Origin: Mesorhizobium terrae
GTDB taxonomy: Bacteria; Pseudomonadota; Alphaproteobacteria; Rhizobiales; Rhizobiaceae
Assembly: GCF_008727715.1 (NCBI RefSeq)
Contig: NZ_CP044218.1
Span: 2,621,501 to 2,685,500, forward strand
Reading direction: 5' to 3'
Length of the DNA: 64,000 nucleotides
The notes beneath the pieces are model-generated. The model worked only from the letters and a program-made list of their open reading frames with translations, was not told the DNA's origin and did not search any database. Below are positions 29,754 to 48,093 of the stretch, in pieces; position 1 is the first letter of the stretch, and every line of letters starts with the position of its first letter. Made by a program: the position numbers and the translations under genes.

Positions 29754-29754
29754 A

Positions 29755-30636
29755 TCAGGCATCCTTTCCAAACAGGCCGGCGGGTCGGATGAGGAGCACG
29801 ATCGCCATGATGACGAAAATGACGATGCTGGAGGCTTCCGGGTAGAACACCTTGGTCAGGCCTTCGGCGAGGCCGAGCATATAGCCGGTGACGATAGCGC
29901 CGAGGATCGAGCCCATGCCGCCGACGACCACGACGGCGAAGACGATGATGATGAGGTTCGAACCCATCAGCGGGCTGACCTGATAGACCGGGGCAGCCAG
30001 GATGCCGGCCAGCCCGGCAAGACCTGCGCCAAGGCCATAGGTCAACGTCAGCAGCACCGGCACATTGACGCCGAAAGCCTGCACCAGCTTGGGGTTCTCG
30101 GTGGCGGCGCGCAGATAGGAGCCGAATTTCGTTTTCTCGACCAGGAGCCAGGTGCCGAGACATACGACGAGCGAGGCGACGACCACCCAGCCGCGGTAGA
30201 TGGGCAGGAACATGAAGCCCAGATTGACGCCACCGGCCAGCGCTGGCGGCACCGGATAGGGGTTGCCGGAAACGCCGTAGACGTATCGGAACACGCCCTC
30301 GATCACCAGCGCCAGGCCGAAGGTGAAGAGCAGGCCGTAGAGCGGGTCGACATCGTAGAGCCGCGACAAGGCGAGCCGCTCGACGACGACGCCGAACAGC
30401 GCCACCGCCAGCGGTGCCAGGATCAGCGCCGGCCAGTAGCCGATACCAAGCTTGGCGAGGATCAGATAGCCGATGAAGGCGCCCAGCATATATTGCGCGC
30501 CATGCGCGAAATTGATGACGCGCAGCAGGCCGAAGATGATGGCCAGGCCGAGCGAGAGCATGGCGTAGAACGAGCCGTTGATCAGCCCGACCAGCAACTG
30601 TCCGGCGAAGGCCTGGATGGGGATGCCGAAGATCAT
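29755..30636 (-). CDS. livH: Branched-chain amino acid type ABC permease (LivH-like)
   Basis: 293 residues, strongly hydrophobic. GLINGSFYAMLSLGLAIIFG and VINFAHGAQYMLGAFIGY at the N-terminus and VVVVGGMGSILGAIVTGYML later are diagnostic of the LivH subunit. The ATG at 30636 lies 3 bp after the LivF-like stop, indicating tight coupling. Confidence 0.94.
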   Translation of the reverse strand: MIFGIPIQAFAGQLLVGLINGSFYAMLSLGLAIIFGLLRVINFAHGAQYMLGAFIGYLILAKLGIGYWPALILAPLAVALFGVVVERLALSRLYDVDPLYGLLFTFGLALVIEGVFRYVYGVSGNPYPVPPALAGGVNLGFMFLPIYRGWVVVASLVVCLGTWLLVEKTKFGSYLRAATENPKLVQAFGVNVPVLLTLTYGLGAGLAGLAGILAAPVYQVSPLMGSNLIIIVFAVVVVGGMGSILGAIVTGYMLGLAEGLTKVFYPEASSIVIFVIMAIVLLIRPAGLFGKDA

Positions 30637-30639
30637 CGG

Positions 30640-31350
30640 TCAGACTCCCAAAACGTCATGCAGTTCGCCCATCCGGTTGTCGAGGTCGCCAACCGGAAAC
30701 TCGGACAGCACCTTGCCGTGCTCCATCAGATAGAAGCGGTCGGCGATGCGGCTGGCGAAGCGGAAATTCTGCTCGACCAGAAGGATGGTCATGCCGCGGC
30801 GCTTCAATTCAGCCAGGAGTTCGCCGATGCGCTGCACGATCACCGGCGCCAGTCCCTCCGTCGGCTCGTCGAGCAGGATGGTGCTGGCGCCGGTGCGCAG
30901 GATGCGCGCGATCGCAAGCATCTGCTGCTCGCCGCCGGAGAGCTTGGTGCCGGGGCTGTTGCGTCGCTCCTTCAGATTGGGGAACAGTTCGAAAATCTCA
31001 TCGACACCCATGCCGTCCTTGGCCACCACCGGGGGCAGCATCAGGTTTTCGTCCACGGTCAATGTCGAGAAGATGCCGCGCTCCTCGGGCACATAGCCGA
31101 TGCCGGCGCGCGCGGTGTGGTGCAAAGGCAGGCGGATCAGGTCCTTGCCGGCGAACGACACTTGGCCGGTACGCTTGCGGATGAGCCCCATGATGGCGCG
31201 CAGCGTCGTCGTCTTGCCGACGCCGTTGCGGCCGAGCAGCGTGACCGTCTCTCCTTGATGGATGTCGAGATCGACGCCATGCAGCGCATGGCTCTCGCCA
31301 TACCAGGCGTTCAAGCCGCGCACCGAAAGCAGCGGACCCGCGCTATTCAT
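30640..31350 (-). CDS. livF: Branched-chain amino acid type ABC ATPase (LivF-like)
   Basis: 236 residues, a single nucleotide-binding domain. Walker A LLGRNGVGKTTTLR, the Liv-specific YVPEERGIFSTLTVDENL, signature LSGGEQQMLAIARIL and Walker B ILLDEPTEGLAPV are all intact. ATG at 31350 overlaps the LivG-like stop by 8 bp; the frame is open further upstream but that part runs antisense-like over the LivG gene. Confidence 0.94.
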   Translation of the reverse strand: MNSAGPLLSVRGLNAWYGESHALHGVDLDIHQGETVTLLGRNGVGKTTTLRAIMGLIRKRTGQVSFAGKDLIRLPLHHTARAGIGYVPEERGIFSTLTVDENLMLPPVVAKDGMGVDEIFELFPNLKERRNSPGTKLSGGEQQMLAIARILRTGASTILLDEPTEGLAPVIVQRIGELLAELKRRGMTILLVEQNFRFASRIADRFYLMEHGKVLSEFPVGDLDNRMGELHDVLGV

Positions 31351-32119
31351 GCTCGGTCCCCATATAGGCGACACGCACGCGCTCGTCCTTGCTGACCGTG
31401 TCATAGTCTCCGGCCGCCAGTACCTGGCCGCGCTGCAAGACCGTCACCCAGTCGGCGATGTCCGCGACAACGGACAGATTATGCTCCACCATCAGCACGG
31501 CACGGTTCTCGGCTATCGAGCGGACCAGCCTGGAGATCGTGCCGACATCCTCGTGCCCCATGCCCGCCATCGGCTCGTCGAGTAGCAGCACCTTGGGGTC
31601 GAGTGCCAGCGTGGTGGCGATCTCCAGCACGCGCTTGCGCCCATAGGAGAGGTCGGAGGCCAGCCTATGTCTGGCGCTGTCCAGGCCGACTGCGTGCAGA
31701 AGCTCCATCGCCCTCGGCGTCAGCCGGTCGAGCGTGGAGAGCGAACGCCAGAACTGCGTGGCCAGTCCGTTGGGCCGCTGCAGCGCCACCCGAACATTGT
31801 CGAGCACGCTGAGATGCGGAAAGGTTGCCGATATCTGGAACGAGCGCACGACGCCCATGCGCGCCACCTTGGCCGGCGCAGTCCTGGTGATGTCGATACC
31901 GGCGCATGTGATCGTGCCCGCGGTCGGCTGCAGGAACTTGGTTAGAAGGTTGAAGACGGTCGTCTTGCCGGCGCCGTTGGGGCCGATCAGGGCATGTATC
32001 TTGCCGTGATGGACGTCGAGATCGACATCCTTCACGGCAACAAAACCGGCGAAATCGCGCCGCAATCCACGCGCCGACAGGATCGCCGGTTCAGGGCTCG
32101 GTTGGGGTTCGGTACTCAA
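31343..32119 (-). CDS. livG: Branched-chain amino acid type ABC ATPase (LivG-like)
   Basis: 258 residues from TTG at 32119, which has CGGAGG five bases upstream; a GTG at 32149, directly behind the binding-protein stop, is the alternative and adds 10 residues. Walker A IGPNGAGKTTVFNLLTKF is typical of LivG. The signature region reads DLSYGRKRVLEIATTLAL and Walker B LLLDEPMAGMG. It pairs with the LivF-like protein to drive uptake. Confidence 0.92.
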   Translation of the reverse strand: MSTEPQPSPEPAILSARGLRRDFAGFVAVKDVDLDVHHGKIHALIGPNGAGKTTVFNLLTKFLQPTAGTITCAGIDITRTAPAKVARMGVVRSFQISATFPHLSVLDNVRVALQRPNGLATQFWRSLSTLDRLTPRAMELLHAVGLDSARHRLASDLSYGRKRVLEIATTLALDPKVLLLDEPMAGMGHEDVGTISRLVRSIAENRAVLMVEHNLSVVADIADWVTVLQRGQVLAAGDYDTVSKDERVRVAYMGTEHE

Positions 32120-32150
32120 CGATGCCTCCGTCCCCGCATCTCCGAACACC

Positions 32151-33359
32151 CTATTTCACCAACGGGCACCCGGACTCCGCCGGCTTGATGTAGGCCTCGT
32201 CGCCGGGAATGGTGGCCAGAACCTTATAGTAGTCCCAAGGCTGCTTGCTCTCCGACGGCTTCTTCACTTCCATCAGATACATGTCGTGGATCATGCGCCC
32301 GTTGGCGCCGACCTTGCCGCCGCGCGCGAAAACGTCCTCGACCGGCATCTCGTGCAGGTTCTTGGCGACGGCTTCGGTTTCGTCGGTGCCGGCCTTGTCG
32401 ACGGCCTTCAGATATTGAAGGACCGCCGAATAAGTGCCGGCCTGGATCATGTTCGGCATGCGGCCGGTGCGGTCGAAAAACTTCTTCGCCCAGGCGCGGG
32501 ACTGATCGTCACGATCCCAATAGAAGCCTTCGGTCAGTGTCAGCCCCTGCGCTGCCTCGAGGCCAAGGCCATGCACTTCGGCGAGCGTGAACAGAAGGGC
32601 GGCCATGCGCTGGCCGCCGGCAACGATGCCGAACTCAGCCGCCTGCTTGATGGCGTTGGCGGTGTCGAGGCCGGCATTGGCAAGGCCGATCACCTTGGCG
32701 CCCGAAGACTGCGCCTGCAAAAGGAACGACGAATAGTCGGTGGTGGCCAGCGGATGGCGCACCGAACCCAGCACCTTGCCGCCTTTCGAGGTGACGAATT
32801 TCGAGGTCTGTTCTTCGAGCGAATATCCGAAGGCGTAGTCGGCGGTCAGGAAGAACCAGGTGTCGCCGCCCTGCTGCACCAGCGCGCCGCCGGTGCCGAC
32901 GGCGAGCGCATGGGTGTCGTAGGCCCAGTGAAAGCCATAAGGCGAGCACGACTTGCCGGTGAGATCCGAAGTGGCCGCGCCGGTGACGATGTCGATCTTC
33001 TTCTTTTCCTGCGAAATGCCTTGCACGGCGAGCGCGACCGACGACGTGGTTAGTTCCATGATCGCGTCCACCTGCTCGGTGTCATACCATTGGCGCGCGA
33101 TGTTGGAGGCGATGTCGGCCTTGTTCTGATGATCGGCGGTGACCACCTCGATCGGCACGCCCTTGACCTTGCCGCCGAAATCCTCGACCGCCATCTTGGC
33201 TGCCTCGTAGGACCATTTGCCACCGAAATCGGCATAGACGCCGGACTGGTCGTTCAGGATACCGATCTTGACCTTGTTGTCCGAGAATTGCTGCGCGGCG
33301 GCCGGAAACGAAACGCCTGCCAGAAGAACGACTGCAAGTGCGCGCGAGATCATCGCCAT
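32151..33359 (-). CDS. Branched-chain amino acid type substrate-binding protein (Peripla_BP_6)
   Basis: 402 residues. The signal peptide MAMISRALAVVLLAGVSFPA ends at AAA-QQF, followed by VKIGILNDQSGVYADFGGKW, the entry strand of the LivK-type fold. GGGAGGAGTT precedes the ATG. The C-terminus (AESGCPLVK) is typical of a subgroup seen with aromatic, urea or amide-type substrates as often as with leucine, so the substrate is left open. It is the first gene of the five-gene operon. Confidence 0.93.
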   Translation of the reverse strand: MAMISRALAVVLLAGVSFPAAAQQFSDNKVKIGILNDQSGVYADFGGKWSYEAAKMAVEDFGGKVKGVPIEVVTADHQNKADIASNIARQWYDTEQVDAIMELTTSSVALAVQGISQEKKKIDIVTGAATSDLTGKSCSPYGFHWAYDTHALAVGTGGALVQQGGDTWFFLTADYAFGYSLEEQTSKFVTSKGGKVLGSVRHPLATTDYSSFLLQAQSSGAKVIGLANAGLDTANAIKQAAEFGIVAGGQRMAALLFTLAEVHGLGLEAAQGLTLTEGFYWDRDDQSRAWAKKFFDRTGRMPNMIQAGTYSAVLQYLKAVDKAGTDETEAVAKNLHEMPVEDVFARGGKVGANGRMIHDMYLMEVKKPSESKQPWDYYKVLATIPGDEAYIKPAESGCPLVK

Positions 33360-33632: not shown

Positions 33633-34232
33633 CTAGCCCTTCAGCCCTTCGACGATGCGCAGCAATGCCAGCTGTCCGGGGTCGGCCAGGCCGATGCTCT
33701 TTTCGCCGAACATGCGGGCGCGCCCGAGAAGGTTGGGCTTGCCCTTGTATTCTTCCAGCGTGTCGGCGGCTGCTTTGATGGCAGTCGCCACCATGGCTTC
33801 TGGCGCAACGCCGTCGATGGCTTTCGCGATGGCGTCGAGGCTGTCCAGAACAGTCTTGTCGCCGAGTGCGCCCTTGCCGCGCGCCATCATGGCGTCTCGT
33901 GCAGCCGCGATCAGTCCGGGAATTTCAGCCGCGTCGATCGATGTCCTGCCCTTGGTCGTCTTGGCGGCGGACATGAAAGCGGTCGCAACCAGCGTTCCGT
34001 AGGAGGACGACGAGACGCGCTGGAACGCCTTGGCGGCTTCCAGAAGGGCCATGCCGAAATCTTCGGGAAGGGGAGCGGCGGCGGCTTCGGCAAAACCCTT
34101 GGAAACGGTGATGCCGAGATCGCCGTCGCCGAGTGCGCCGTCAGCCGCGCAAAGCTCGGCGGAGGCGTCTGCGGTAGCCGCCGCCACCCGTCCGAGCGCG
34201 GCCTTGAGTGCGGTGCTGTCGATCGCGGTCAT
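33633..34232 (-). CDS. dhaL: Dihydroxyacetone kinase subunit DhaL-like
   Basis: 199 residues, all-helical, with the metal/ADP-binding block LGDGDLGITVSKGF (around residues 34-47) and SSSSYGTLVATAFM downstream. PTS-coupled DhaL proteins commonly read GDGDHG here; the leucine is a difference. DhaL supplies the nucleotide to DhaK, which holds the ketose. No DhaM is encoded nearby, so ATP is the likely donor, as in four-carbon ketose kinases of this class. ATG lies one base after the DhaK stop (TGACATG). It is the last gene of the ten-gene operon. Confidence 0.9.
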   Translation of the reverse strand: MTAIDSTALKAALGRVAAATADASAELCAADGALGDGDLGITVSKGFAEAAAAPLPEDFGMALLEAAKAFQRVSSSSYGTLVATAFMSAAKTTKGRTSIDAAEIPGLIAAARDAMMARGKGALGDKTVLDSLDAIAKAIDGVAPEAMVATAIKAAADTLEEYKGKPNLLGRARMFGEKSIGLADPGQLALLRIVEGLKG

Positions 34233-34233
34233 G

Positions 34234-35229
34234 TCACACCTTCCAGAAAGCGCATTCCGCGGGCGCCTTGAGCAGACCTTCCAACTCGCCGTCGAGCTTG
34301 ATGATCGTCATCGTGGCGCCGGTCATTTCCATCGAAGTGGCAAAGCGGCCGACCAGCGGCATGACGATCTCGACGCCCATCGCATCGAGGCGCTTCCTGG
34401 CGTGCCGGTAGAGGATGTAGAGTTCTTCGGCGGGCGTCGCGCCCAGCGAATTCACCAGGATCGAGATGCGGTCGCCCTTGCCGAGCGGCTGGTCGGCCAC
34501 AAGCCTGTCGATCATCTCGTCGGCGATCTCGTCGGCGGGCTTGATGGCGGCGCGCCAGATGCCGGGCTCGCCATGGATGCCCATGCCCATTTCCATTTCG
34601 CCCTCGCCGATCTCAAACGTCGGCTTGCCGGCCTGCGGAATGGTGCAGGGGGTCAGCGCCATGCCGATGGAGCGGCAGGCATCGGCAGCCTTCTGCCCGA
34701 CGCGGGTAACCTCGTCGAGGTCCGCGCCGGTCTCGGCATGCGCGCCGGCGATCTTGTAGGCAAAGACCATGCCGGCGACGCCGCGGCGCTTCTGTGCTTC
34801 CGCCGCCGGGGCGGAGGCGACGTCGTCGGCTAGCAGAACGGTAGTCGTGCGGATGTCGTTTTCCATCTCGACCATCTCGCCGGCCATGTCGAAATTCATG
34901 ACGTCGCCGCCGTAATTGCCGTAGAGCCTCAGCACGCCGGCGCCGCCGTCGGCCAGCCTGATCGCCTCGGCCATCTGCTCGGCTGAAGGGCTGGCGAATA
35001 CGTCGCCGATGGCGCAGGCGTCGAGCAGGCCTTTGCCGACATAGCCGGTGAAGATCGGCAGATGGCCGGAGCCACCGCCCGATACGATGCCGACCTTGCC
35101 CTTGCGGGCGCCGGCGGCGCGCACGACGACGCGGCGCACTGGCTGCGCGTAATATTCCGGATGGGCGGCGACCATGCCCTCCAGCATCTCGTCGACATAA
35201 TCGGCGGGGTTGTTCAGGATCTTCTTCAT
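34234..35229 (-). CDS. dhaK: Dihydroxyacetone kinase subunit DhaK-like
   Basis: 331 residues. The N-terminal kinase fold (GIVSGGGSGHLPIFTGYVGKG) leads to GMGIHGEPG, whose His219 is the residue that binds the keto group of the substrate covalently. ATG at 35229 has GGAGGAAA upstream. With DhaL it should phosphorylate a short ketose: dihydroxyacetone or, given the sugar transporter and FGGY kinase in the operon, a four- or five-carbon ketose such as erythrulose. The substrate is inference. Confidence 0.92.
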   Translation of the reverse strand: MKKILNNPADYVDEMLEGMVAAHPEYYAQPVRRVVVRAAGARKGKVGIVSGGGSGHLPIFTGYVGKGLLDACAIGDVFASPSAEQMAEAIRLADGGAGVLRLYGNYGGDVMNFDMAGEMVEMENDIRTTTVLLADDVASAPAAEAQKRRGVAGMVFAYKIAGAHAETGADLDEVTRVGQKAADACRSIGMALTPCTIPQAGKPTFEIGEGEMEMGMGIHGEPGIWRAAIKPADEIADEMIDRLVADQPLGKGDRISILVNSLGATPAEELYILYRHARKRLDAMGVEIVMPLVGRFATSMEMTGATMTIIKLDGELEGLLKAPAECAFWKV

Positions 35230-35248
35230 GTTTCCATTTCCTCCAGAG

Positions 35249-36265
35249 TCACGCGCCGAGCGGCCGTGCGATGCGTTCGCGATGCCGGGCGAGGCGGTCG
35301 ATGACGATCGGCAGGCCGGTGCCGACGACGATAAGGCAACCGATGACGACCTTCTGCCAATAGGACGGAACACCCGCCATCAAGAGCGTCGTGTTGATCA
35401 TGGTGATGACGAAAACGCCAAGCAGCGTGCCGGTCACCGTGCCGTGGCCGCCGGTGATGCGGGCGCCGCCGAGCACCACTGCAGCAATGACGTTCAGCTC
35501 CATGCCGACCAGGTCGAACGGATTGGCCATGCGCGACAGCGTCACATGGGTCATGCCCGCCAGGCCGGCGATCGCACCCGCCAGGACGTAGATCATCACC
35601 TTGACGCGCTTGACCTTGATGCCAATGCGCTCCGCCGCATCTTCGGAGCCGCCGATGGCGTAGATCTTGCGGCCGAACAGCGTGTGGCCCATCAGGATCG
35701 CCACAGTGACGGCGACGCCCACCAGCACGATGAACGACATCGGCAGCGATACCATCTGGCCGGCTGCGTTCTCCAGCCGCACGAACACCTTGCGCGAGAA
35801 CTGGATGACCTCGCGGGGAACAGACGTGATGTAGACGGTGCCGAGGAAAGTCAGCAGCGCGCCGCGGAAGAGGCTCAGCGTTCCGAGCGTCACGATCAGC
35901 GTCGGCAGCCCGAGGCCGCCGATCAACAGGCCGTTGATCAGGCCGAGCGAGGCGCCGATCGAGGCACTCAGCGCGAAAAAGACGATGATCGGCACATCGA
36001 CATCGATGCCGAGGATGATCTTCATCGTCGCATACATGGCGAAAGCGCCAATCGCGGTGCACGAGACGTCGATGCCGCCGGACGCCAGCACCATCATGAC
36101 GCCGAGCGCGAAGATGCCGGTGACCAGCGAATTGCGCAGAAGGTCGACCAGCGTGGCCGGCGAAAAGAAGGCGGGGTTGAGCAGGCTGAGCACCAGCGCG
36201 AACACGATTGCCGTGGCCAGCACGACACCTTGCGGCGTGGCGAGGAACCGGAAAGAAGAATTCAT
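35249..36265 (-). CDS. Sugar ABC transporter permease 1 (RbsC-like)
   Basis: 338 residues with about nine membrane segments. LASGGIDVSCTAIGAFAMYA replaces the more usual GGIDLSVGS motif, and AAVVLGGARITGGHGTVTGT is the C-terminal family block. The start overlaps the ATPase stop by 4 bp. A second, different RbsC-like permease lies in the same operon at 41501-42484, so the channel is probably a heterodimer. Confidence 0.92.
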   Translation of the reverse strand: MNSSFRFLATPQGVVLATAIVFALVLSLLNPAFFSPATLVDLLRNSLVTGIFALGVMMVLASGGIDVSCTAIGAFAMYATMKIILGIDVDVPIIVFFALSASIGASLGLINGLLIGGLGLPTLIVTLGTLSLFRGALLTFLGTVYITSVPREVIQFSRKVFVRLENAAGQMVSLPMSFIVLVGVAVTVAILMGHTLFGRKIYAIGGSEDAAERIGIKVKRVKVMIYVLAGAIAGLAGMTHVTLSRMANPFDLVGMELNVIAAVVLGGARITGGHGTVTGTLLGVFVITMINTTLLMAGVPSYWQKVVIGCLIVVGTGLPIVIDRLARHRERIARPLGA

Positions 36266-37776
36266 GGCCGGTCCTCTCTGACCACTTCCTTGTAGAGTTT
36301 TTCTTCGTTGATTTCGGTCGCGTCGAAGTTCGCGGTGATGTGCCCGCGCACCATCACCAGGATGCGGTCGGACAGCGCGATCGCCTCGCTGATGTCGTCG
36401 GTCACCACCATCACGGCGGTTCCAGCGCGGCTCAGCGCGATCAGCAATTCATGGATTTCGCGCTTCGAGCCGACGTCGACGCCGACGGTCGGACCGTTCA
36501 GGATCATCAGCTTGGGATCGCGTTCCATCCAGCGCGCCAGGACGACGCGCTGCTGGTTGCCGCCGGAAAGCGTGGCGACCGGCGGCGTAATGCCTGGCGT
36601 CTTGATGCGCAGCTTCTTCACCGCATCCTGCGCCCGGCGCACCAGCGCCGCCGCGTCGACGATGCCGCCCTTGGTGTTCTTCTCCAGGCTCGACACGATG
36701 ATGTTGTCGCGGATCGGCTGGTTGAGGAACAGGCCCTCGGTCAGGCGGTCCTCCGGCACATAGGCGATGCCGCGCTCGATGGCGTCGCTGACGCTGGCGA
36801 AAGAAACCGGCCTGCCGTCGACCGTGATTTCGCCGGCGTCAGGCGACAGGCGCCCGAACAGGGTCAGCGCCAGTTCGGTGCGGCCGGAGCCGAGAAGACC
36901 GACCACCGAGACGATCTCGCCCGGCCTGAGGTCGAGGTCGACATTGGCGAATTCGCCACGCCGGCCGAGTTTTTTTGCGGAAAGGAAAGGGGAGGCGGCT
37001 GGAAATTCCGTGCGGGGAAGGCGCTGGCTGTCGATGGAACGGCCGGTCATCGCCTCGACGAGGCGGGCCGGATCGAACTCGCCGATAGGGCCTTCGACGA
37101 CGACGCGGCCATCGCGCAGCACGGTGACCGTGTCGCAGACCGCGAAAACTTCTTCGATCTTGTGGCTGACGAACAGGAAAGCGACGCCCTGCGCCTTCAG
37201 CGCCGACACGATTTCCAGGAGTTTTGCCACCTCGCTGCGGGTCAGCGCGGTGGTCGGCTCGTCCATGACGATGATGCGTGCCTGGTTGGCCAGCGCGCGG
37301 GCAATCGCCACGAGCTGCTTGGAGGCGACCGGCAGAAGCTCGACCGGCATGTCCGGGTCGATGTCGACCTGCATGCGCTTCAGCGTGTCGATGGCAAGCT
37401 TCCGGCGCGAGCCGCGGCGATGCCATCTGTCACCGGTGGTGACGGCGGCGAGAAATCCGATGTTTTCCCAGACACTCAGGTTCGGGAACAAGGAGAAATC
37501 CTGATAGATGACGGAGAGGCCGGCCGCGATCGCTGCCTTGGCGTCCTGGCCGGATGCCTTGCCATTGATGGCGACGCTTCCCGCATCGGCGCCGACGACG
37601 CCAGAGAGAACCTTGATCAGGGTCGATTTGCCGGAACCGTTTTCGCCGGCAAGGCACCTGACCTCACCCTCCTGCAAGGACAGGCCGACATCTTCCAATA
37701 CCCGTACCGGGCCATAGGCCTTGCGGATGCCACGCATCTCCAGCACGGGTCGATGATTGGGTGTTTCTTCGGTCAT
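36262..37776 (-). CDS. Sugar ABC transporter ATP-binding protein with atypical second Walker B
   Basis: 504 residues, two fused nucleotide-binding domains. The first site is canonical: GENGSGKST (residues 45-53) and IVMDEPTTALT. The second has a good signature LSGGNQQRVVLARWM, but Walker B reads LMILNGPTVGVDVG instead of LLLDEPT, so the magnesium aspartate and catalytic glutamate are replaced by Asn and Gly. The first half reads LLPVASKQLVAIARAL where a signature is expected. One composite site is therefore likely non-hydrolytic, as in several sugar importers of this subgroup. It is followed by permease 1 with a 4-bp overlap. Confidence 0.93.
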   Translation of the reverse strand: MTEETPNHRPVLEMRGIRKAYGPVRVLEDVGLSLQEGEVRCLAGENGSGKSTLIKVLSGVVGADAGSVAINGKASGQDAKAAIAAGLSVIYQDFSLFPNLSVWENIGFLAAVTTGDRWHRRGSRRKLAIDTLKRMQVDIDPDMPVELLPVASKQLVAIARALANQARIIVMDEPTTALTRSEVAKLLEIVSALKAQGVAFLFVSHKIEEVFAVCDTVTVLRDGRVVVEGPIGEFDPARLVEAMTGRSIDSQRLPRTEFPAASPFLSAKKLGRRGEFANVDLDLRPGEIVSVVGLLGSGRTELALTLFGRLSPDAGEITVDGRPVSFASVSDAIERGIAYVPEDRLTEGLFLNQPIRDNIIVSSLEKNTKGGIVDAAALVRRAQDAVKKLRIKTPGITPPVATLSGGNQQRVVLARWMERDPKLMILNGPTVGVDVGSKREIHELLIALSRAGTAVMVVTDDISEAIALSDRILVMVRGHITANFDATEINEEKLYKEVVREDRP

Positions 37777-37842
37777 CCCGGTCTCCAGGGACAGAAGCCG
37801 CCGGACGCATTGTCCGGCGGCGCCTGTCGGGGCTATTGCGAC

Positions 37843-38841
37843 TTAGAATTTATATTCGCCCATGTTTTCCTTGGTCACGTCGACCCAGGCCTGGCCGTAG
37901 ATGACCTTGCCGTCGAGACGGATCTTGGAATAACCCTCGACGCCGAGATCCATGCCGTCGGTGATCGGCTTGCCTTCGATCGCCATCGCGGCAACCTTGT
38001 TCATGGCGATGCCGGCCTTGGCCGGATCCCAGAACGAGATCATCTTGATGTCGCCGCTTTCGAGATACGGACCCGAAACCGAGACGAGGCTGGTGCCGAC
38101 GATGGCGACCTTGCCGGTCAGGCCGGCTTCCTCGACGGCAAGTGCCGCGCCGACCACGTCTTCACCGGCCGAGCCCTGGATACCCTTGAGGTTCGGGTAG
38201 GTGCGCAGCAGTTCCTTGCTCTTCTGGTAGGCAGTCTGCTGCTGCTCGTTGCTCTCGATCTTGTCGGTGACGAGCTTCATCTTCGGGTATTTGGCCTTCT
38301 GGTAGGCGATCGCCGCGTCCACCCATTCATTGTGGGTCTTGGCGGTGAGATGGCCGACGAACACGGCATATTCGCCTTCGCCGCCCATCGCCTTGGCCAT
38401 CGCTTCCATCAGATGCTCGCCATAGGCGCCATTGTCGAAGGCCTCGACATCGTAGGTTATGTTCTTGAGGCTGGAACCTTCATGGCCAACCACCTTGATG
38501 TTCTGGGCGAGCGCCTTGGCCAGCACTGGCTCCAGGGCTTCCGGCGAGTTCGGGACGACCGTGATCGCGTCGACCTTCTTGGCGATGAGGTCTTCGATCA
38601 TCTGCACCTGGAGAGCGGCGTCGGCGGAAGCCGGACCGACCTGGGTAGCGTCATGGCCGGTTTCCTTGGCGTATTCCGCGACGCCGTCGCCCATGCGGTT
38701 GAACCAGGCAATGCCCGACAGCTTCACGACCGTCACGATCGTGTGCTTGGCATCCTGTGCATGGGTGACAGCTGCAGCGCCCGCCAGAAGCGACGCGCCG
38801 AGCGCTGCCGCAACCGTCATTTTCCTGAAGTTAAAAGTCAC
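37843..38841 (-). CDS. Periplasmic sugar-binding protein
   Basis: 332 residues from GTG at 38841, which has GGAGGA five bases upstream; ATG at 38820 is an alternative. The signal peptide (MTVAAALGASLLAGAAAV, cleaved at THA-QDA) precedes a type I periplasmic-binding domain (VKLSGIAWFNRMGDGV, AITVVPNSPEALEPVLAKAL). The fold and TSLVSVSGPYLESGDIK resemble autoinducer-2/rhamnose-type binding proteins of the LsrB/RhaS group, which bind small polyols or deoxy sugars. It is the binding component for the two permeases and the ATPase of this operon. Confidence 0.92.
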   Translation of the reverse strand: MTFNFRKMTVAAALGASLLAGAAAVTHAQDAKHTIVTVVKLSGIAWFNRMGDGVAEYAKETGHDATQVGPASADAALQVQMIEDLIAKKVDAITVVPNSPEALEPVLAKALAQNIKVVGHEGSSLKNITYDVEAFDNGAYGEHLMEAMAKAMGGEGEYAVFVGHLTAKTHNEWVDAAIAYQKAKYPKMKLVTDKIESNEQQQTAYQKSKELLRTYPNLKGIQGSAGEDVVGAALAVEEAGLTGKVAIVGTSLVSVSGPYLESGDIKMISFWDPAKAGIAMNKVAAMAIEGKPITDGMDLGVEGYSKIRLDGKVIYGQAWVDVTKENMGEYKF

Positions 38842-38907
38842 AAGTTCCTCCACTTTAATAAACGCCCCGTCCGTCATGGTGACGTCCAGCCGGGCGCGGT
38901 TCGACGC

Positions 38908-40404
38908 TCAGCGCGAGGCCTCTTTCATGAGGTCCTTCGTCCGGGCGTAAAGCTCTTTGAATGTCTTGCGGCGGCGCGCGTAGACGGCGGCATTGCCGCT
39001 GTCCGGCTCGATCAGGCGTTCGACCGGGTTCCAGGCGCTAATGTCGCTGCGCCTGGCGTTGCCGACTGCGACCGCGCCGAGAAAGGCGTTGCCATAGGCG
39101 GCCCCGATCGTCTTGGCGCGTACGGTTTGCGGCCAGTTGCTGACATCGGAGACCGATTGCGACCACACCTGGTTCTTGGTGCCGCCGCCGACAGCGGCGA
39201 TCGTCTTCAGCGGCGCGCCGGCTCCGACATAGGTCTCGATGACGTCGTTGACGCCATAGGCGATGCCTTCGAGGAAGGCGCGGTAGATGTCGGCGCGGGT
39301 ATGGGTGAGGTCGAGGCCGAACAGCATGCCTTTTGCCTGCGGATCGTGGATCGGCGTGCGCTCGCCCGAGAAATAGGGAAGAACCACCAGGCCGTTGGCG
39401 CCCGCCGGTGAAGTCGCGGCCTGTTCTGCGAGTTCGCGCAATGCCGACTTCGGGTCGAGTTCGCGGGCGAACTGGTCCTGGAACCAGCGCGTCAGCGTGC
39501 CGCTTGTCGACGTGCCCGACATGCAGGCGTGCTGACCCTGGAACAGCCAGGGCGCATACCAGAGCCTGGGGTCCTCGACCCGCCTGTCGGTGACGAGAAT
39601 GATGAACATGGTCGAGCCGTACATGACCATCATCTCGCCGGTGCCTTGCACGCCGACGCTGACGGCTTCGGACGCCGCGTCGATCGTGCCGGCAATGACC
39701 GGTGTTCCTGCCGCAAGGCCGGTGGCATCGGCGGCCGCCGCCGTCACCGTGCCTGCGATGTCGGTCGTCCACAAAAGGCCTGGCAAGCGTTCGGGCGCGA
39801 TGATGCGATCGGCGAACCTGTCGGTCCATTGGTTGCTGGCGGCGTCGTAGAGCGGGCTCGAGCTGCAGGCCGAATAATGGTCTAGCACGTAGCGGCCGGT
39901 CAGCCGGTGAACCAGAAACGACGAGGAGTTGAGCACCTTGTGGGTGCGGGCATAAAGCTCCGGCCGGTTCTTCTTAAGCCAGAGGATTTTGGGCCCGACC
40001 GATTGCGATGTCAGCGCATTGCCGCCGGTGCGGACCAGTTCGTCCACGCCGATCTCGGCGGAAAGTTCCTCGATCTCGACCGCCGCCCGCGTGTCGACGC
40101 CGTAGAGCACCGCGTTCATCAGCGGCACGCCGTCGGCATCGACCGGCAGCATGCAGGGGCCAATGCCGCTGGCGCCGACGGAGCGGATGTCGCTCGGGGC
40201 AACGCCGCTGGAAGCGATCAGCTCCTTGCTGATGGAGCAGAACTCGCCCCACCAGTTCGTCTCGGCATCGTGTTCGGCCCAGCCTGGCTGGGGTACGAGC
40301 ATCTTGTGAGGACGCGCCGCCGTGGCGACGATCCGCCCGGTGTCGTCCACCAGGGTGCCCTTCGATTCAAAGGTGCCGATATCGATCCCGAGATAGTGTG
40401 GCAT
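38908..40404 (-). CDS. FGGY-family carbohydrate kinase
   Basis: 498 residues. The N-terminal phosphate loop YLGIDIGTFESKGTLVD and the second-domain blocks GTIDAASEAVSVG, MYGSTMFII and AVGGGTKNQVWSQSV identify an FGGY sugar kinase (xylulokinase-like rather than glycerol kinase-like). PYFSGERTPIHDPQAKG is the typical xylulokinase-group motif. It should phosphorylate a pentulose, hexulose or polyol. The start overlaps the M42 stop by one base (TGATG). A second kinase system, DhaK/DhaL, lies in the same operon. Confidence 0.92.
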   Translation of the reverse strand: MPHYLGIDIGTFESKGTLVDDTGRIVATAARPHKMLVPQPGWAEHDAETNWWGEFCSISKELIASSGVAPSDIRSVGASGIGPCMLPVDADGVPLMNAVLYGVDTRAAVEIEELSAEIGVDELVRTGGNALTSQSVGPKILWLKKNRPELYARTHKVLNSSSFLVHRLTGRYVLDHYSACSSSPLYDAASNQWTDRFADRIIAPERLPGLLWTTDIAGTVTAAAADATGLAAGTPVIAGTIDAASEAVSVGVQGTGEMMVMYGSTMFIILVTDRRVEDPRLWYAPWLFQGQHACMSGTSTSGTLTRWFQDQFARELDPKSALRELAEQAATSPAGANGLVVLPYFSGERTPIHDPQAKGMLFGLDLTHTRADIYRAFLEGIAYGVNDVIETYVGAGAPLKTIAAVGGGTKNQVWSQSVSDVSNWPQTVRAKTIGAAYGNAFLGAVAVGNARRSDISAWNPVERLIEPDSGNAAVYARRRKTFKELYARTKDLMKEASR

Positions 40405-41504
40405 CAGGTGTAGAGGTCGCGATCGAGGCTGAAGGACGGGGTGACGCGGCGAATGACCGAAACCAGCAGTTTGGTCAGTCCCTCCAGGTCGCGCAGGTCG
40501 CACATTTCGAGAGCGGTGTGCGTGTAGCGGCAGGGGAAACAGACATCGATACAGGCAACGCCTTCATTGACGAGCTGGACATAGGAAGAGTCCGTCAGCG
40601 CGCCGGTATGGGCGGTCCGCTGCAGCGGGATTTTTTCAGCCCTGGCTGTCTCGGCGAAAAGATGCGGCAGCGCCGGGTGCGGAATGGTGCCGTTCAGCGT
40701 TCCGCGTCCGTGGAAGGAATAGAGGCTGATCGCCGGTCCGCCGCCAAGCGCCACTTCGCCGCGATGCGCCATGTCGGGCGTATCGGAGTTCAGCGCGAGA
40801 TCGAGCTGAATGGCGATGTCCGGCTTGATCGACTGGGCCGCGACCATGGCGCCGCGCAGGTTGAATTCTTCGAGCACGGCAAAGACGAAGTGTACGGTCG
40901 GGCGCGGCCCGTCCTTGGAAAGCTGGCGCGCCACTTCCATCACCACCGCGCAGCCGGCGCGGTCGTCGATCGAAGTGCCGATCACGCGGTTTTCGTTGAG
41001 ATGGATGACGCGCGGGTCGTAGACCACCGGCGTGCCGATCGCGATGCCGAGCTTGTGCACTTCGTCCGCGTTTTCGGCGCCGACGTCGATGAACAGTTCG
41101 GCGTAAGGCGTGACCTTGTATTTCTCTTCGGCCGGCGTCGCGTGATGGCTCTTGTTGGCGATGACGCCGTGAACGTCTCTACCTTCGCCGACGCAGAACA
41201 GCACGGCCTGGGCGGGAAGCGCCTTTTCGGGAATGCCGCCGAGGCGTTCGATGCGGATCAGGCCGTTGGCCTCGACCTTGCGGACGATGAAGCCCAACTG
41301 GTCGGTGTGGGCAAACAGCATCACCGAGGGTGCGCCGGCGTCGCCTTCCAGCGTGGCGATCAGATTGCCCAGCGTGTCGGTGCGGAGCTTCAGCGGCAGG
41401 TCAGCCAGATCGCGGGCAATCAGGCGGCGGACGCGATCCTCATGGCCCGAAAGTCCGGGCGTCAGCATGAGGGATTCGAGCAGGGAGCGAAGACGGTCCT
41501 TCAC
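40404..41504 (-). CDS. M42-family metallopeptidase-like protein (SgcX-like)
   Basis: 366 residues with the M42 dinuclear site: AHTDQLGFIV (His and Asp), SIDDRAGCAV (bridging Asp), LEEFNLRGA (general base and ligand Glu), QLDLAL (Asp) and CRYTHTALE (His). The enzyme is therefore probably active. M42 members are aminopeptidases or were annotated as endoglucanases; E. coli SgcX of the sgc carbohydrate operon is also in this family. In an operon of sugar transport and kinases a peptide substrate is unexpected; hydrolysis of an acylated or amide-linked sugar is a guess. Confidence 0.9.
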   Translation of the reverse strand: MKDRLRSLLESLMLTPGLSGHEDRVRRLIARDLADLPLKLRTDTLGNLIATLEGDAGAPSVMLFAHTDQLGFIVRKVEANGLIRIERLGGIPEKALPAQAVLFCVGEGRDVHGVIANKSHHATPAEEKYKVTPYAELFIDVGAENADEVHKLGIAIGTPVVYDPRVIHLNENRVIGTSIDDRAGCAVVMEVARQLSKDGPRPTVHFVFAVLEEFNLRGAMVAAQSIKPDIAIQLDLALNSDTPDMAHRGEVALGGGPAISLYSFHGRGTLNGTIPHPALPHLFAETARAEKIPLQRTAHTGALTDSSYVQLVNEGVACIDVCFPCRYTHTALEMCDLRDLEGLTKLLVSVIRRVTPSFSLDRDLYT

Positions 41505-42484
41505 GACGGTTTGACCTTTCGTTGGAAGAGCGATGACAGGTTGAGCGAGCCCATGGCGACGCGCAGCGACATGGCGGCGACGAGGAAGCCGCCGAAGAAC
41601 AGGTCGCGCGAGAAGGCGCTGAAAGAGAGGAAGTTGAGGCCGCTCGAAATGAATTGCAGGCAGATGACGGCAAGCACGACGCCGGTGACGGTGCCGAAGC
41701 CGCCGGCCGGGCTGACGCCTGCCAGGATGTTGATCAGGATGACCAGCAACAGATAGGACGAGCCGTAATCGGCATTGGCGGAATTGACGCGCGCCAGCAC
41801 CACGAGGCCTGCAAGGGCCGCGATGAAACCGGCGATCGCATAGATGCGGATCAGCAGGCCGCGTTCGCGAATGCCGGCAAAACCGGCGGCGACCGGATTG
41901 GCGCCGAAGAGCCGCAATCTGAGGCCGACCGGCGTGCGGGTCAGCAGGAAGTAGAGGCCGAGCGCCACCAGCGCAAAGATCACCAGGGGCAGAGGCACCA
42001 CGCCGCCGAGCGACTGGTTGCCGAAGGACGTGTACCAGTCCGGCAGCCCGGTGATCGCGGGACCGCGGGTGATGACGATGCCGATGCCGGCAAACAGCTG
42101 CATGGTGCCGAGCGTCGCCAGGATGGGCGGCAGGCGGAGATAGGCGATGAGGAAACCGTTCAGCGCGCCGCAGCAGACGCCGACGGTGAGTGCCGCCGGA
42201 ATGGCGAGCCAGGCATATTCCGGCCCGGCGCGCATGATGACGGCGGCGACGATCGCCGCCAGGTTGGCGACGGCGACGACCGAGAGGTCGATGCCGCCGG
42301 AAATCATGGTCGGCAGGACGGCGAGGGCAAGCAGCCCGAACTCCGGGAACTGGAAGCCCATGGAGTTCAGATTGCTAAGGCCGAGGAAGCTTGGCGCCGT
42401 GATGCTCAGTGCGATGAAGATCAGGGCGGTGAGAACCGCCAGGCTTTTCAGATAGGAATTGGTGGTGTCCTGTCTGACGTCCAT
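41501..42484 (-). CDS. Sugar ABC transporter permease 2 (RbsC-like)
   Basis: 327 residues, about nine membrane segments. MISGGIDLSVVAVANLAAI and NILAGVSPAGGFGTVTGVVL are the two family blocks; the second is ILAGVSP rather than the commoner IIGGTSLSGG. It overlaps the M42 gene by 4 bp and is separated from permease 1 by five genes. Both permeases presumably pair with the same ATPase and binding protein. Confidence 0.92.
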   Translation of the reverse strand: MDVRQDTTNSYLKSLAVLTALIFIALSITAPSFLGLSNLNSMGFQFPEFGLLALAVLPTMISGGIDLSVVAVANLAAIVAAVIMRAGPEYAWLAIPAALTVGVCCGALNGFLIAYLRLPPILATLGTMQLFAGIGIVITRGPAITGLPDWYTSFGNQSLGGVVPLPLVIFALVALGLYFLLTRTPVGLRLRLFGANPVAAGFAGIRERGLLIRIYAIAGFIAALAGLVVLARVNSANADYGSSYLLLVILINILAGVSPAGGFGTVTGVVLAVICLQFISSGLNFLSFSAFSRDLFFGGFLVAAMSLRVAMGSLNLSSLFQRKVKPS

Positions 42485-42515
42485 ACGCTTCCTCCGCCCC
42501 TTCTTTCCGGTCCGC

Positions 42516-43325
42516 TTACTGGCCGCGCGTCGCCTTGACGATGCGCATGAATTCCTTGGCGCGCTCGGCGTCGACCGATTTCCAGGTGTCGCCGTCGATC
42601 TTCAGCGACGAGCCGACGATGCAGCCATCAGCGATCTTGAGGATGTCGGCGACGGTCGCGTGGCGAACGCCGGTGTTGGCCAGAACAGGCGTGTTCGGAA
42701 GCACCTTCTTCACCGATACCAGCGCAGACATTTCGGCGGCTTCGCCGGTGATGGCGCCGGAAACCAGCACGGCGTCCGGGATCGAGGAGAACACGGCCGA
42801 GCGGGCGCGATCGGCCAACGAACGCTTGTCGAGCGAGTCGGCGAATTCAGCCGAGACGTTGTTCAGCATCACGAGGTCGGAGCGGTCGAGGCGGTCGCGG
42901 TAGCGCATGGCCTGACCGGCGTTCGGCGTCCACGGGCCCATGTCGGAAGCGTAGGTGCCGGTGAAGATTTCGCGCACGAAGGACGCGCCGGTGGCGACTG
43001 CGAGGGCAACCGTGCTCATCGGGTCCCACAAGACGTTGACGCCGAATGGCTTGGCGATTTCCGAGCGAAGTTGGCCGATGACATAGGCCATGGTCGCCGT
43101 CGATGCAGTGTCGACCTGCAATTCGTAAGGACGGTCGTTTTCGTTGCCGAACATCACGGCGTCGACATCGGCGGCCTGCAGGGCGGTGAGGTCGCGACGC
43201 GCCGCCTCGACGATGCCGGCAACGCCTGCCTCCGCGTCATAAAGCGGGGTGCCGGGCATCGGGTTGAGATGCACCATGGCGATGATCGGCTTCTTGCCGC
43301 CGAACAACTTGTTGAATTTGCTCAC
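42516..43325 (-). CDS. BtpA/SgcQ-family protein
   Basis: 269 residues forming a TIM-barrel-like protein. The family is recognised from the N-terminal IIAMVHLNPMPGTP, the central VNVLWDPMSTVALAVATGASFVRE segments and the C-terminal ANTGVRHATVADILKIADG and IVGSSLKIDGDTW. BtpA was linked to photosystem I stability in cyanobacteria and SgcQ is an unassigned gene of the E. coli sgc operon; no reaction is established. The final phosphate-binding-like loop (GCIVGSSLK) suggests a phosphorylated substrate, which is inference. It follows the DeoR gene by 46 bp. Confidence 0.9.
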   Translation of the reverse strand: MSKFNKLFGGKKPIIAMVHLNPMPGTPLYDAEAGVAGIVEAARRDLTALQAADVDAVMFGNENDRPYELQVDTASTATMAYVIGQLRSEIAKPFGVNVLWDPMSTVALAVATGASFVREIFTGTYASDMGPWTPNAGQAMRYRDRLDRSDLVMLNNVSAEFADSLDKRSLADRARSAVFSSIPDAVLVSGAITGEAAEMSALVSVKKVLPNTPVLANTGVRHATVADILKIADGCIVGSSLKIDGDTWKSVDAERAKEFMRIVKATRGQ

Positions 43326-43371
43326 TGTATTTCTGCCTTTCTAGCCTTGGGAGGGCGATGACCGTTGACGG

Positions 43372-44145
43372 TCAAACGACTTGGATATCCGCGAACTTGT
43401 CGCGGTAGGGACCGAGCAACGGCTCGGCGCCGCGGTCGGTGATGAACAGGTTGACCGCGTCGAGCGGACAGACCGAGACGAAACTGTGCAGGTTGAGCTT
43501 GCTGTGGTCGGCAACGAGCGTGGTCCGTGCCGCCTGCGCGATCGCGGCGCGTTTGACCTCGGCTTCGTCCAGCGTCGAGTTGGTCACGCCGGTTTCGTCG
43601 ATCGCGTCGGCCGCCATGAAAAAGACGTCGGCGCGTATGCCTTTCAGCGCGTCGGCCATCCACGAGCCGACGATGCTGTAATAGCCGTTGCGGATGCGGC
43701 CGCCGAGAACATGCACTTCGGTCGCGCCGGAAGCGGCCGCCTCCGCCACCTTCAGGTCCATGGCGACGACGGTGACCGGACGCCCGGCCAGCTCCCGCGC
43801 GATGGCCAGCGATGTCGTGCCGGAATCGAGGATGACGACCTTGTTGTTGTCGACCGTGGCCGCGGCCGCGGCGCCGATGCGCGTCTTCAGGTTCTGGTGA
43901 ACGCGCAGCTTTTCGAGGAACAGCGGCTCGGTCGTGCTTTCGCCGATGCCGCGCGCCACCACGCCGCCATGGGTGCGCGACACAAGCCCGGCCTGTTCGA
44001 GAACGGCGACGTCGCGGCGAACCGTCGGCAGCGAAATGCCCATCTTCGCCGCCAGTTCGGTGGTTCCCACGCGCTTCAGTTCGACGATCAGATCGATCAT
44101 CTGCTGATGCCGCTCATGCGGGAACCTGGATCGGTGCTCGCTCAT
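43372..44145 (-). CDS. DeoR-family transcriptional regulator
   Basis: 257 residues. The N-terminal DeoR helix-turn-helix (RHQQMIDLIVELKRVGTTEL, then GISLPTVRRDVAVLEQAGLV) precedes the sensor domain with the sugar-phosphate loop ILDSGTTSLAIAREL and ADHSKLN near the end. Such regulators sense phosphorylated sugars. It is the first gene of the ten-gene operon and probably represses its own promoter. AAGAGGAGA precedes the ATG at 44145. Confidence 0.93.
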   Translation of the reverse strand: MSEHRSRFPHERHQQMIDLIVELKRVGTTELAAKMGISLPTVRRDVAVLEQAGLVSRTHGGVVARGIGESTTEPLFLEKLRVHQNLKTRIGAAAAATVDNNKVVILDSGTTSLAIARELAGRPVTVVAMDLKVAEAAASGATEVHVLGGRIRNGYYSIVGSWMADALKGIRADVFFMAADAIDETGVTNSTLDEAEVKRAAIAQAARTTLVADHSKLNLHSFVSVCPLDAVNLFITDRGAEPLLGPYRDKFADIQVV

Positions 44146-44562: not shown

Positions 44563-44652
44563 TGGCGGAGAGAGCGGGATTCGAACCCGCGTTACGGTCT
44601 CCCGTAAACACACTTTCCAGGCGTGCGCCTTCAACCACTCGGCCACCTCTCC
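44563..44652 (-). tRNA. tRNA-Ser (GGA anticodon)
   Basis: The minus strand folds as a class II tRNA: 7-bp acceptor stem GGAGAGG/TCTCTCC, D-arm, anticodon loop CTGGAAA with GGA at 44616-44618, a long variable arm (near TTTACGGGAGACCGTAA), the T-arm with GTTCGAATC, and an encoded CCA at 44565-44563. It decodes UCC and UCU serine codons. Confidence 0.96.
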
Positions 44653-46372: not shown

Positions 46373-47362
46373 ATGAAACGTATCGTTCTCGGCCTTCTGG
46401 CCGCAACCGCGATGATCTTCCCGGCCGTCGCCGAAGAGATCAAGCCGGCGCTGCTTTACGACCTCGGCGGCAAGTTCGACAAATCCTTCAACGAGGCTGC
46501 CTTTAACGGCGCCGAGAAATTCAAGAAGGAGAGCGGCGTCTCCTATGTGGAATTCGAAGTTTCGAACGCCTCGCAGCGCGAACAGGCGCTGCGCCGCTTC
46601 GCCGAAGACGGTCGCAGCCCGATCGTCATGGCCGGCTTCTCCTGGGTTGATTCCCTGACCAAGGTGGCCAAGGAATATCCGGAGCTGAAATTCGCCATCA
46701 TCGACGATCAGGTCGATCTGCCCAACGTGCGCTCGCTGAAGTTCAAGGAACAGGAAGGCTCCTACATCGTCGGCCTGCTCGGTGCGATGGCCTCCAAGAC
46801 CAAGAAGGTCGGTTTCATCGGCGGCATGGACATTCCGCTCATCCGCAAGTTCGGCTGCGGCTATGTCGGCGGCGCCAAGGCAAACGGCGCGACCGATGTC
46901 ATCTACAACATGACCGGCGACACGCCGGCTGCCTGGAACGACCCGGCCAAGGGCGGCGAAATCGCCAAGACCCAGATCGATCAGGGCGCCGACGTGATCT
47001 ACGCGGCGGCTGGTGGCACGGGCGTGGGCGTGCTGCAGGCGGCGGCTGATGCGGGCAAGCTCGGCATCGGCGTCGATTCCAACCAGAACGGCCTGCAGCC
47101 CGGCAAGGTGCTGACCTCGATGCTGAAGCGCGTCGACGTTGCTGTCTACAGCGCTTTCACCGACGCCAAGAATGGCAAGTTCACCGGTGGCATCAATAAT
47201 CTCGGCCTCAAGGAAGGCGGCGTCGACTACGCCCTGGACGACAACAACAAGGCTCTCATCACGCCGGAGATGAAGGCTGCCGCCGACAAGGCCAAGGAAG
47301 ACATCATTGGCGGCAAGATCCAGGTGCATGACTATTCGAGCGACAACAAGTGCCCTTACTGA
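46373..47362 (+). CDS. BMP-family ABC substrate-binding protein, probable nucleoside binder
   Basis: 329 residues. The signal peptide MKRIVLGLLAATAMIFPAVA is followed by IKPALLYDLGGKFDKSFNEAAF, the basic-membrane-protein (PnrA-like) signature in which the DxxFN segment contacts the nucleoside base. GFIGGMDIPLIRKFGCGY and GIGVDSNQNGLQPGKVLTSML follow. Start ATG at 46373 after GTGGATC. BMP proteins feed nucleoside ABC importers. The matching ATPase and permeases lie 2 kb downstream (49345-52986), so this is their probable partner although a terminator and unrelated genes intervene. Confidence 0.93.
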   Translation: MKRIVLGLLAATAMIFPAVAEEIKPALLYDLGGKFDKSFNEAAFNGAEKFKKESGVSYVEFEVSNASQREQALRRFAEDGRSPIVMAGFSWVDSLTKVAKEYPELKFAIIDDQVDLPNVRSLKFKEQEGSYIVGLLGAMASKTKKVGFIGGMDIPLIRKFGCGYVGGAKANGATDVIYNMTGDTPAAWNDPAKGGEIAKTQIDQGADVIYAAAGGTGVGVLQAAADAGKLGIGVDSNQNGLQPGKVLTSMLKRVDVAVYSAFTDAKNGKFTGGINNLGLKEGGVDYALDDNNKALITPEMKAAADKAKEDIIGGKIQVHDYSSDNKCPY

Positions 47363-47385
47363 TCGGCATTTGACGGACGAATGAC

Positions 47386-47419
47386 GAACCGCCGGGCGAA
47401 AGTCCGGCGGTTCTTTTTT
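47386..47419 (+). terminator. Rho-independent terminator after the nucleoside-binding protein gene
   Basis: GAACCGCCGG and CCGGCGGTTC form a perfect 10-bp stem around 8 bases, followed by TTTTTTG. It starts 23 bp after the stop codon. Confidence 0.93.
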
Positions 47420-47543
47420 GAGAACCGATAGGTCCGGCGTGGTCTATCCCGGCGATGCACTGTGCGCCTTGCCCTTGTGCGACCATGGCGGCAGAGGGTG
47501 GCGGTAATTCGAGGCGCTTTTGCCGACACTGACGAGAACCGCC

Positions 47544-47999: not shown

Positions 48000-48093
48000 C
48001 ACGCTCTCAAAAGCCGGTCGCCGAACTGCCTCATCTGTCGTTGCCGCGTGCTAGAGTGCCTCGGCTGGGGATGCTGCAAGGGGAGATGACAGC

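Follow-up and report, generated by a model that had tools for sequence, protein, structure and literature searches.

The stretch of Mesorhizobium terrae DNA analysed here (64,000 nucleotides, positions 2,621,501 to 2,685,500 of contig NZ_CP044218.1; "the window" below) carries on its minus strand, at positions 33633-44145, an operon of ten open reading frames (ORFs), a new and apparently composite member of an already known sugar-operon type, in which a BtpA/SgcQ-family protein is encoded together with an FGGY carbohydrate kinase. All ten products score above their Pfam cut-offs in a profile search of the window proteins. In the order of transcription they are a DeoR/GlpR-family regulator (43372-44145; PF00455 and PF08220), the BtpA/SgcQ-family protein, a predicted TIM barrel (42516-43325; PF03437, 250 bits), a CUT2-type ABC permease (A; 41501-42484; PF02653), an SgcX-like M42 metallohydrolase (40404-41504; PF05343, 260 bits), the FGGY kinase (38908-40404; PF00370/PF02782), a periplasmic sugar-binding protein (SBP; 37843-38841; PF13407), a sugar ABC ATPase with two nucleotide-binding domains (36262-37776; PF00005, two stretches), a second CUT2-type permease (B; 35249-36265; PF02653), and the DhaK (34234-35229; PF02733, 401 bits) and DhaL (33633-34232; PF02734, 99.3 bits) subunits of a dihydroxyacetone-kinase-like enzyme. 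The intergenic distances in the same order are 46, 31, -4, -1, 66, 66, -4, 19, and 1 bp. The first-pass annotation, which described ten tightly packed genes on one strand in this order, is thus borne out by the Pfam families and by gaps of -4 to 66 bp. The starts of DhaK (35229) and of the FGGY kinase (40404, ATG) are corrected ones, and that of the SBP gene is ambiguous between 38841 (GTG) and 38877 (ATG). Promoter and terminator scans of the locus gave signals at the level of shuffled sequence. The 6.02 Mb window genome contains a single BtpA match and a single M42 match, both inside this operon, and two DhaK matches.

BtpA genes were found in 69 of 199 genomes of a family sample, 18 of 289 of a class sample and 12 of 249 of a phylum sample (the three samples overlap in some genomes). 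Beyond the window, 92 of the 106 distinct listed BtpA places were fetched, with weak, partial and very short-contig places omitted, and further loci came from the best 80 named loci of one contig scan and from five annotated records. Removal of 17 duplicates with identical BtpA ends left 161 distinct BtpA-ORF loci, of which 124 belong to the SgcQ clade; 100 of these, the window and Escherichia coli included, are flanked on each side by 5 kb or more. Ten very weak BtpA matches, none of them with a kinase match, were kept as a separate class. The final neighbour counts rest on ORF-level matches, because gene calling overlooked BtpA at loci such as L033 and L160. Within 8 kb of the 100 full-flank SgcQ-clade genes there is an FGGY match in 96, an M42 match in 70, a DeoR match in 41, a DhaK match in 18, and a SIS match in 13. 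We estimate the chance expectation for FGGY at about 3%, since the window genome holds about ten FGGY genes (11 matched places) in its 6.02 Mb. Thus, the near-universal partner of SgcQ-clade BtpA is a sugar kinase. In the distant BtpA clade a PfkB kinase lies nearby in 22 of 24 loci, and the very weak full-flank matches have a kinase nearby in none of nine. The first-pass annotation had proposed DeoR, BtpA and M42 as a conserved three-gene core and had left the sugar kinase out of it; the counts above do not sustain that core, and DeoR in particular was rejected as a member.

The loci fall into several types. Type A, the window-type operon, comprises 21 distinct loci, and ORF sorting finds all ten genes in exact order in at least 13 of them; this is a lower bound because three loci (L036, L097, and L099) look rearranged by ORF sorting and have the standard order in the gene-level rows. 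Two others (L090 and L016) run off contig edges. DhaK-DhaL end the operon in 18 of the 21, and DhaKL are absent from two, L095 and L032 (in the latter BtpA lies in an adjoining cluster). The type-A order is kept at 78-85% BtpA identity among named loci of many genera, and the view that these genes are unrelated neighbours held together by chance or general synteny is, given this and the M42 adjacency described below, hardly credible. Type B (e.g., L021 and L109) has BtpA-M42-FGGY with a CUT1 transporter and a 550-amino acid binding protein; frequent additions are an aldo-keto reductase, an L-fuconolactonase-like amidohydrolase and a FucU-like protein, and in some loci there is an HxlB-like SIS protein (TIGR03127, 152.7 bits against a cut-off of 160). 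Type B shares the BtpA-M42-FGGY core with the window but has neither the window-type SBP (SBP-A) nor DhaKL. Type C has BtpA-FGGY with another CUT1 transporter and an SDR protein, often with a HAD phosphatase, and is without M42. Type D contains the distant BtpA clade; most of its loci have a PfkB kinase together with phosphotriesterase-like and PF07090 proteins, and some have an M20 hydrolase or TENA. Examples are L011, L020, and L064, and another (L165) lies on a Pantoea plasmid. In Haloferax (L166) the neighbour of BtpA is a carbohydrate kinase gene of opposite orientation. At the Ochrobactrum-type loci L092-L094 and L096, and at L032, a type-A operon without a BtpA of its own faces a BtpA-carrying type-C cluster, and the BtpA tree places the window BtpA in a starred set (98/96) together with Roseibium and Aureimonas genes that belong to type C. 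We read these facing clusters and the tree as an interchange of BtpA between kinase clusters.

Among the matches listed, there are 131 M42 places of at least 137 bits in the 199 family genomes. A class with match lengths of 888-906 nucleotides, set apart afterwards by this length, has 34 members, 33 of which adjoin BtpA (32 within 6 kb, and that of G189 at 6.1 kb); none of the other 97 places does so, where about 0.2 adjacent pairs are expected by chance (three BtpA places below 36 bits were omitted from this count). Random placement of BtpA and M42 had been named in the first-pass annotation as an observation that would refute its interpretation, and it is not what is seen. The only class member away from BtpA is in genome G064, which has a type-B aldo-keto reductase-M42-FGGY cluster (L184) without BtpA; its BtpA gene (L030) lies about 2.3 Mb off on the same contig. 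The residues H66, D68, D180, D181, E212, E213, and D235 are present in 84 of 84 aligned M42 proteins, SgcX included, and H329 in 83 of 84; we take these to be the metal ligands and the catalytic Glu, their positions having been assigned by the motif of the family, and on this alignment the metal-site and catalytic residues of the M42 protein are intact. SgcX branches closest to the BtpA-linked clade of the M42 tree (93/91, not starred), and FrvX and YpdE fall elsewhere; the placement of SgcX is provisional because the branches are long. A glucanase role for the M42 protein was rejected, since according to the accessible text of PMC3511314 two M42 enzymes annotated as cellulases turned out to be aminopeptidases, which argues against such annotation.

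The window BtpA protein scores 249.8 bits on TIGR00259 (cut-off 153.4) and is thus a member of that family. Cyanobacterial BtpA, known from photosystem I biogenesis, shares PF03437/TIGR00259 with it; the window protein differs in reaching only 156.5 bits on NF045918, whose cut-off is 400. A residue set that we drew up from our own alignment of the SgcQ clade (H19, N61, E62, D101, R118, E119, D128, N156, E160, D184, and N217) is complete in the window protein, and each of its residues is kept in 31-33 of 33 clade sequences. Eleven distant-clade sequences mostly differ at E62, D101, E119, D128, N156, E160, and N217, and since these seven conserved polar positions differ, the two clades probably carry out different chemistry on phosphorylated substrates. 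An AlphaFold2 model made with 40 sequences has a pLDDT of 95.1 and a pTM of 0.93, and most of the 50 Foldseek matches shown are TIM barrels, including ThiE, DHPS, RPE, KDPG-type aldolase, GGGPS/PcrB, PRAI, and IGPS. Through residues about 170-266, in its C-terminal half, the BtpA profile matches TrpA (E 1.5e-6 and 1.4e-5) and, with weak E values between about 1e-3 and 4e-3, GGGPS/PcrB (about 1e-3) and CutC (2.8e-3); the C-terminal half of such barrels holds the phosphate site. A search of PDB sequences with BtpA alone as query matched nothing, our literature searches on BtpA/SgcQ found no paper that gives BtpA a reaction, and E. coli SgcQ is annotated in its record as a "putative nucleoside triphosphatase". 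Because the model is a TIM fold of the phosphate-barrel kind, BtpA probably acts on the product of the FGGY kinase.

The nearest model of the FGGY kinase is that of xylulokinase (TIGR01312), on which it scores 314.1 bits, below the cut-off of 380.25; on TIGR01315, used according to PMC12307932 (as far as its accessible text goes) to collect D-ribulokinase-type FGGY proteins, it scores 147.6 bits. The best PDB match of the SBP is 5bra and the second is 9i1m (E 2.7e-66), which is AauA with bound D-ribulose, with six ligand contacts named in the accessible text of PMC12307932. The SBP is 39% identical to AauA (114/295), and five of the six contacts are present in it; K37, W43, E118, H167, and E196 are invariant across the 23 distinct type-A SBPs, and S223 is replaced by G in all 23, giving the pocket K-W-E-H-E-G (one further sequence, gapped at its N-terminus and included in a later alignment, has the pocket --EHEG). 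In the search for related SBPs at most ten candidates were scored per genome; it listed 47 places beyond 13 type-A ones, 20 of which were fetched and their neighbours scanned in part. The 18 pockets read from relatives outside type A are KWEHES (5), KWEQDM (5), KWEHDG (3), KWEHNA (3), and KWEHDS (2). DhaK-DhaL follow the transporter in all five KWEHDS or KWEHDG loci and in no KWEHES, KWEQDM or KWEHNA operon (in L194 and L206 DhaK is near the operon and outside it). Some KWEHES loci have ketose-type enzymes: L196 a fuculose-phosphate-aldolase-like protein and SIS, L197 a psicose-epimerase-like protein, and L206 SIS. One KWEQDM locus (L192) has a DeoC aldolase; the pocket classes go partly with differing ketose-type enzyme sets of their operons. 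In the SBP tree AauA groups, on a long branch, with three KWEHES proteins (L195, L197, and L201; 100/100), and type A forms its own clade on the other side (95/96). Because of the pocket, the enzymes of the relatives and this tree, a ketose or a derivative of one is the probable ligand, and plain D-ribulose is less likely. Two other assignments were rejected, autoinducer-2 uptake (the SBP scores only about 95-99 bits to LsrB, and other proteins match better) and orthology with 5bra, whose pocket, by eye, differs at H167, E196, and S223, like those of the KWEQDM relatives.

The DhaK and DhaL proteins lie below the cut-offs of their models (386.1 bits on TIGR02363, cut-off 406.25; 79 on TIGR02365, cut-off 138.3). 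The GIHGEPG His, presumably substrate-binding, is kept in 19 of 19 aligned DhaK proteins, the window's included, and DGDLG, which we take to be the nucleotide/Mg site, in 18 of 18 DhaL proteins. A DhaM phosphate donor was looked for among the ten operon genes, the extent of that search, and is not there. DhaKL also occur with a related transporter in neighbourhoods that have neither BtpA nor M42 (L189, L190, L191, L202, and L203; in L190 there is one weak FGGY-like match of 69 bits upstream). The L189 and L190 operons are from genomes of the same family, have the pocket KWEHDS, and, of the intact non-type-A loci that were fetched, score highest for SBP and DhaK; the L189 DhaK stands beside the type-A DhaKs in the tree (84/86, not starred). 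Nearer to the window SBP than these two, but not classable, is a disrupted SBP copy (66%, two stops) from a 4-kb contig of G089 (L199). Conversely, L029 has DeoR-BtpA-M42-FGGY with no sugar transporter recognised among its called neighbours (an adjoining 441-amino acid gene was not identified). Since the two modules stand apart in L029 and L189, the operon looks like a composite of a DeoR-BtpA-M42-FGGY module and a CUT2 transporter-DhaKL module, and we infer that the two have merged.

The kinship with the E. coli K-12 sgc operon (sgcXBCQAER) claimed by the first-pass annotation is real: BtpA, M42 and DeoR are 45%, 35% and 30% identical to SgcQ, SgcX and SgcR, and both operons have a DeoR-type regulator and a sugar transporter. 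The sgc operon differs in having a phosphotransferase system (PTS) in place of an ABC transporter, and in lacking FGGY and, in the operon, DhaKL; among the ten window genes there are in turn no PTS IIA, IIB or IIC components and no SgcE epimerase. The view that the module can be fed by PTS or ABC also stands, as there is a CUT2 transporter here, a CUT1 transporter in each of two types, a different ABC transporter with BtpA-M42-FGGY in L050, and a PTS in E. coli. That the sgc substrate has never been assigned agrees with the accessible text of PMC13343008 (2026), in which sgcABCEQX are induced in nitrogen-containing slow-growth conditions, the mutants tested show no growth defect, and the authors take the induction as a marker of transcriptional state, with substrate and functions still to be established; the sugar is likewise given as unknown in the corresponding text of PMC5797941. 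The Rbl system of Citrobacter rodentium and the Aau system of enterohemorrhagic E. coli, which serve D-ribulose (PMC12307932, accessible text), resemble the window operon in their ABC transporter, in a related SBP with five of six contacts in common and, for Rbl, in an FGGY kinase beside the transporter. The window operon differs in the S223G pocket, the other SBP clade and the XylB-like kinase, and BtpA, M42 and DhaKL are not mentioned in the description of the Rbl and Aau loci in that text.

Taken together, the ten genes could be one ketose-utilization operon built from two older modules, a reading to which we give close to, and not quite, an even chance. DeoR-BtpA-M42-FGGY would be its catabolic core, with the CUT2 transporter providing uptake and DhaKL a second kinase. 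The SBP would capture a sugar resembling a ketose, or a ketose with a further group attached that M42 might remove by hydrolysis; the FGGY kinase would phosphorylate the ketose; BtpA, as a TIM barrel whose C-terminal part likely holds a phosphate site, would convert the ketose phosphate by isomerization or epimerization or by cleavage; and DhaKL may phosphorylate a short ketose that is taken up as such or arises further along the pathway. For the E. coli sgc operon, transporter and kinase would both be replaced by the PTS. Several observations pull the other way. Four of the 100 full-flank loci, those of E. coli (which has the PTS), L030, L104, and L141, have no FGGY or PfkB match nearby; our sampling of loci starts from BtpA and is almost all from Alphaproteobacteria; the listed fold neighbours of BtpA are distant and chemically diverse (query-length TM 0.52-0.64, 11-17% identity); the M42 members tested in PMC3511314, in its accessible text, are aminopeptidases and a poor fit to a plain sugar; the window SBP, with its G at 223, does not belong to the AauA clade, so that its ligand is not fixed; and the enzyme set that goes with the KWEHNA pocket is inconsistent.

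The alternative that fares best makes BtpA a lyase which splits the FGGY product into dihydroxyacetone, to be phosphorylated by DhaKL, and a phospho-aldehyde; it is close to the first-pass proposal that the transformed compound is split to a ketose for DhaKL, and we consider it unlikely. KDPG-type aldolases are among the fold matches of the BtpA model, and DhaK-DhaL close most type-A operons as noted above. DhaK was mapped in the genomes of 64 family loci (L003-L066) and the window, some of these genomes being incomplete (e.g., G043, 76%); it is present in those of 12 of 12 type-A loci, 1 of 1 A+C, 8 of 14 type-B, 4 of 5 B0, 4 of 9 type-C, 18 of 22 type-D, and 1 of 2 other loci. Against a lyase, DhaK is thus missing for 6 of the 14 type-B loci and 5 of the 9 type-C loci in their whole genomes, no better than the background of 123 in 199 family genomes, and BtpA therefore has no general need of DhaK; on this count (11 of 23 type-B and type-C loci) the idea that BtpA requires DhaKL as a partner was rejected. 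The five transporter-DhaKL loci without BtpA, and L095 and L032 without DhaKL, weaken the idea further, so that a ketose split for DhaKL is one unproven option, for type A only.

Somewhat less probable again is an aminoacyl- or peptidyl-ketose substrate (for example, a glycated amino acid), for which M42 would be a true aminopeptidase and the freed ketose would pass to the kinase and BtpA. The intact M42 catalytic set and the two supposed M42 cellulases that proved to be aminopeptidases (PMC3511314, accessible text) are in its favor, the replacement of S223 by G could make room for a substituent, and the sgc genes are induced in nitrogen-containing conditions (PMC13343008, accessible text). 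However, the authors of that study read the induction as a marker of transcriptional state, none of the ten genes encodes a deglycase of known type, and M42 is absent from 30 of the 100 full-flank loci.

A plain D-ribulose uptake operon of the Rbl/Aau kind, with import, phosphorylation and entry into the pentose phosphate pathway, and with BtpA, M42 and DhaKL peripheral, we judge slightly less probable than the aminoacyl-ketose. It draws on the 39% identity of the SBP with AauA and on the five shared contacts, but it has to accommodate the G at 223 in every type-A SBP, the separate clade that AauA forms with the three KWEHES proteins, a kinase that scores more than twice as high on the XylB model as on TIGR01315, and an Rbl locus which, as described in the accessible text of PMC12307932, comes without BtpA, M42 and DhaKL.

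Around the operon, a tRNA-Ser (GGA) gene lies at 44563-44652 on the same minus strand, immediately upstream of the DeoR gene. A plus-strand cluster at 46373-55511, of which the scan took in only part of the ORFs, appears to be for nucleoside uptake and salvage, with a weak BMP-type binding-protein match, an ABC ATPase, and matches to three enzymes (cytidine deaminase, purine-nucleoside phosphorylase and thymidine phosphorylase). On the other side, the region 25693-33359 contains two aminopeptidase/PepQ-like genes on the plus strand, with matches under the cut-off, and on the minus strand, directly downstream of DhaL, what by eye is a branched-chain-amino-acid-type ABC operon. A 1067-amino acid open frame on the plus strand (36208-39411), antisense to the permease B, ATPase, SBP and FGGY genes, is likely a by-product of high G+C content and not a gene.

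More tentative than the ketose-operon reading itself, and still a distinct possibility, is a wider one in which BtpA/SgcQ proteins would form a new class of ketose-phosphate enzymes acting one step after an FGGY kinase, a PfkB kinase or a PTS, with the SgcX-type M42 proteins defining a hitherto undescribed pathway for conjugated ketoses; the sgc operon would be its PTS-fed form, and the window operon an ABC-fed form to which a transporter-DhaKL module is joined. The SBP pocket classes (L189-L207) could become a predictor for ketose transporters. Unlike sgc, the window operon encodes a soluble SBP, with one of six contacts changed relative to a D-ribulose complex of solved structure, and a soluble kinase that should make the substrate of BtpA. 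It is thus useful mainly for making the function of BtpA/SgcQ, and that of E. coli sgc, testable; if the wider reading is true, the kinase coupling would argue for renaming a family that is now labelled for photosystem biogenesis or nucleotide hydrolysis.

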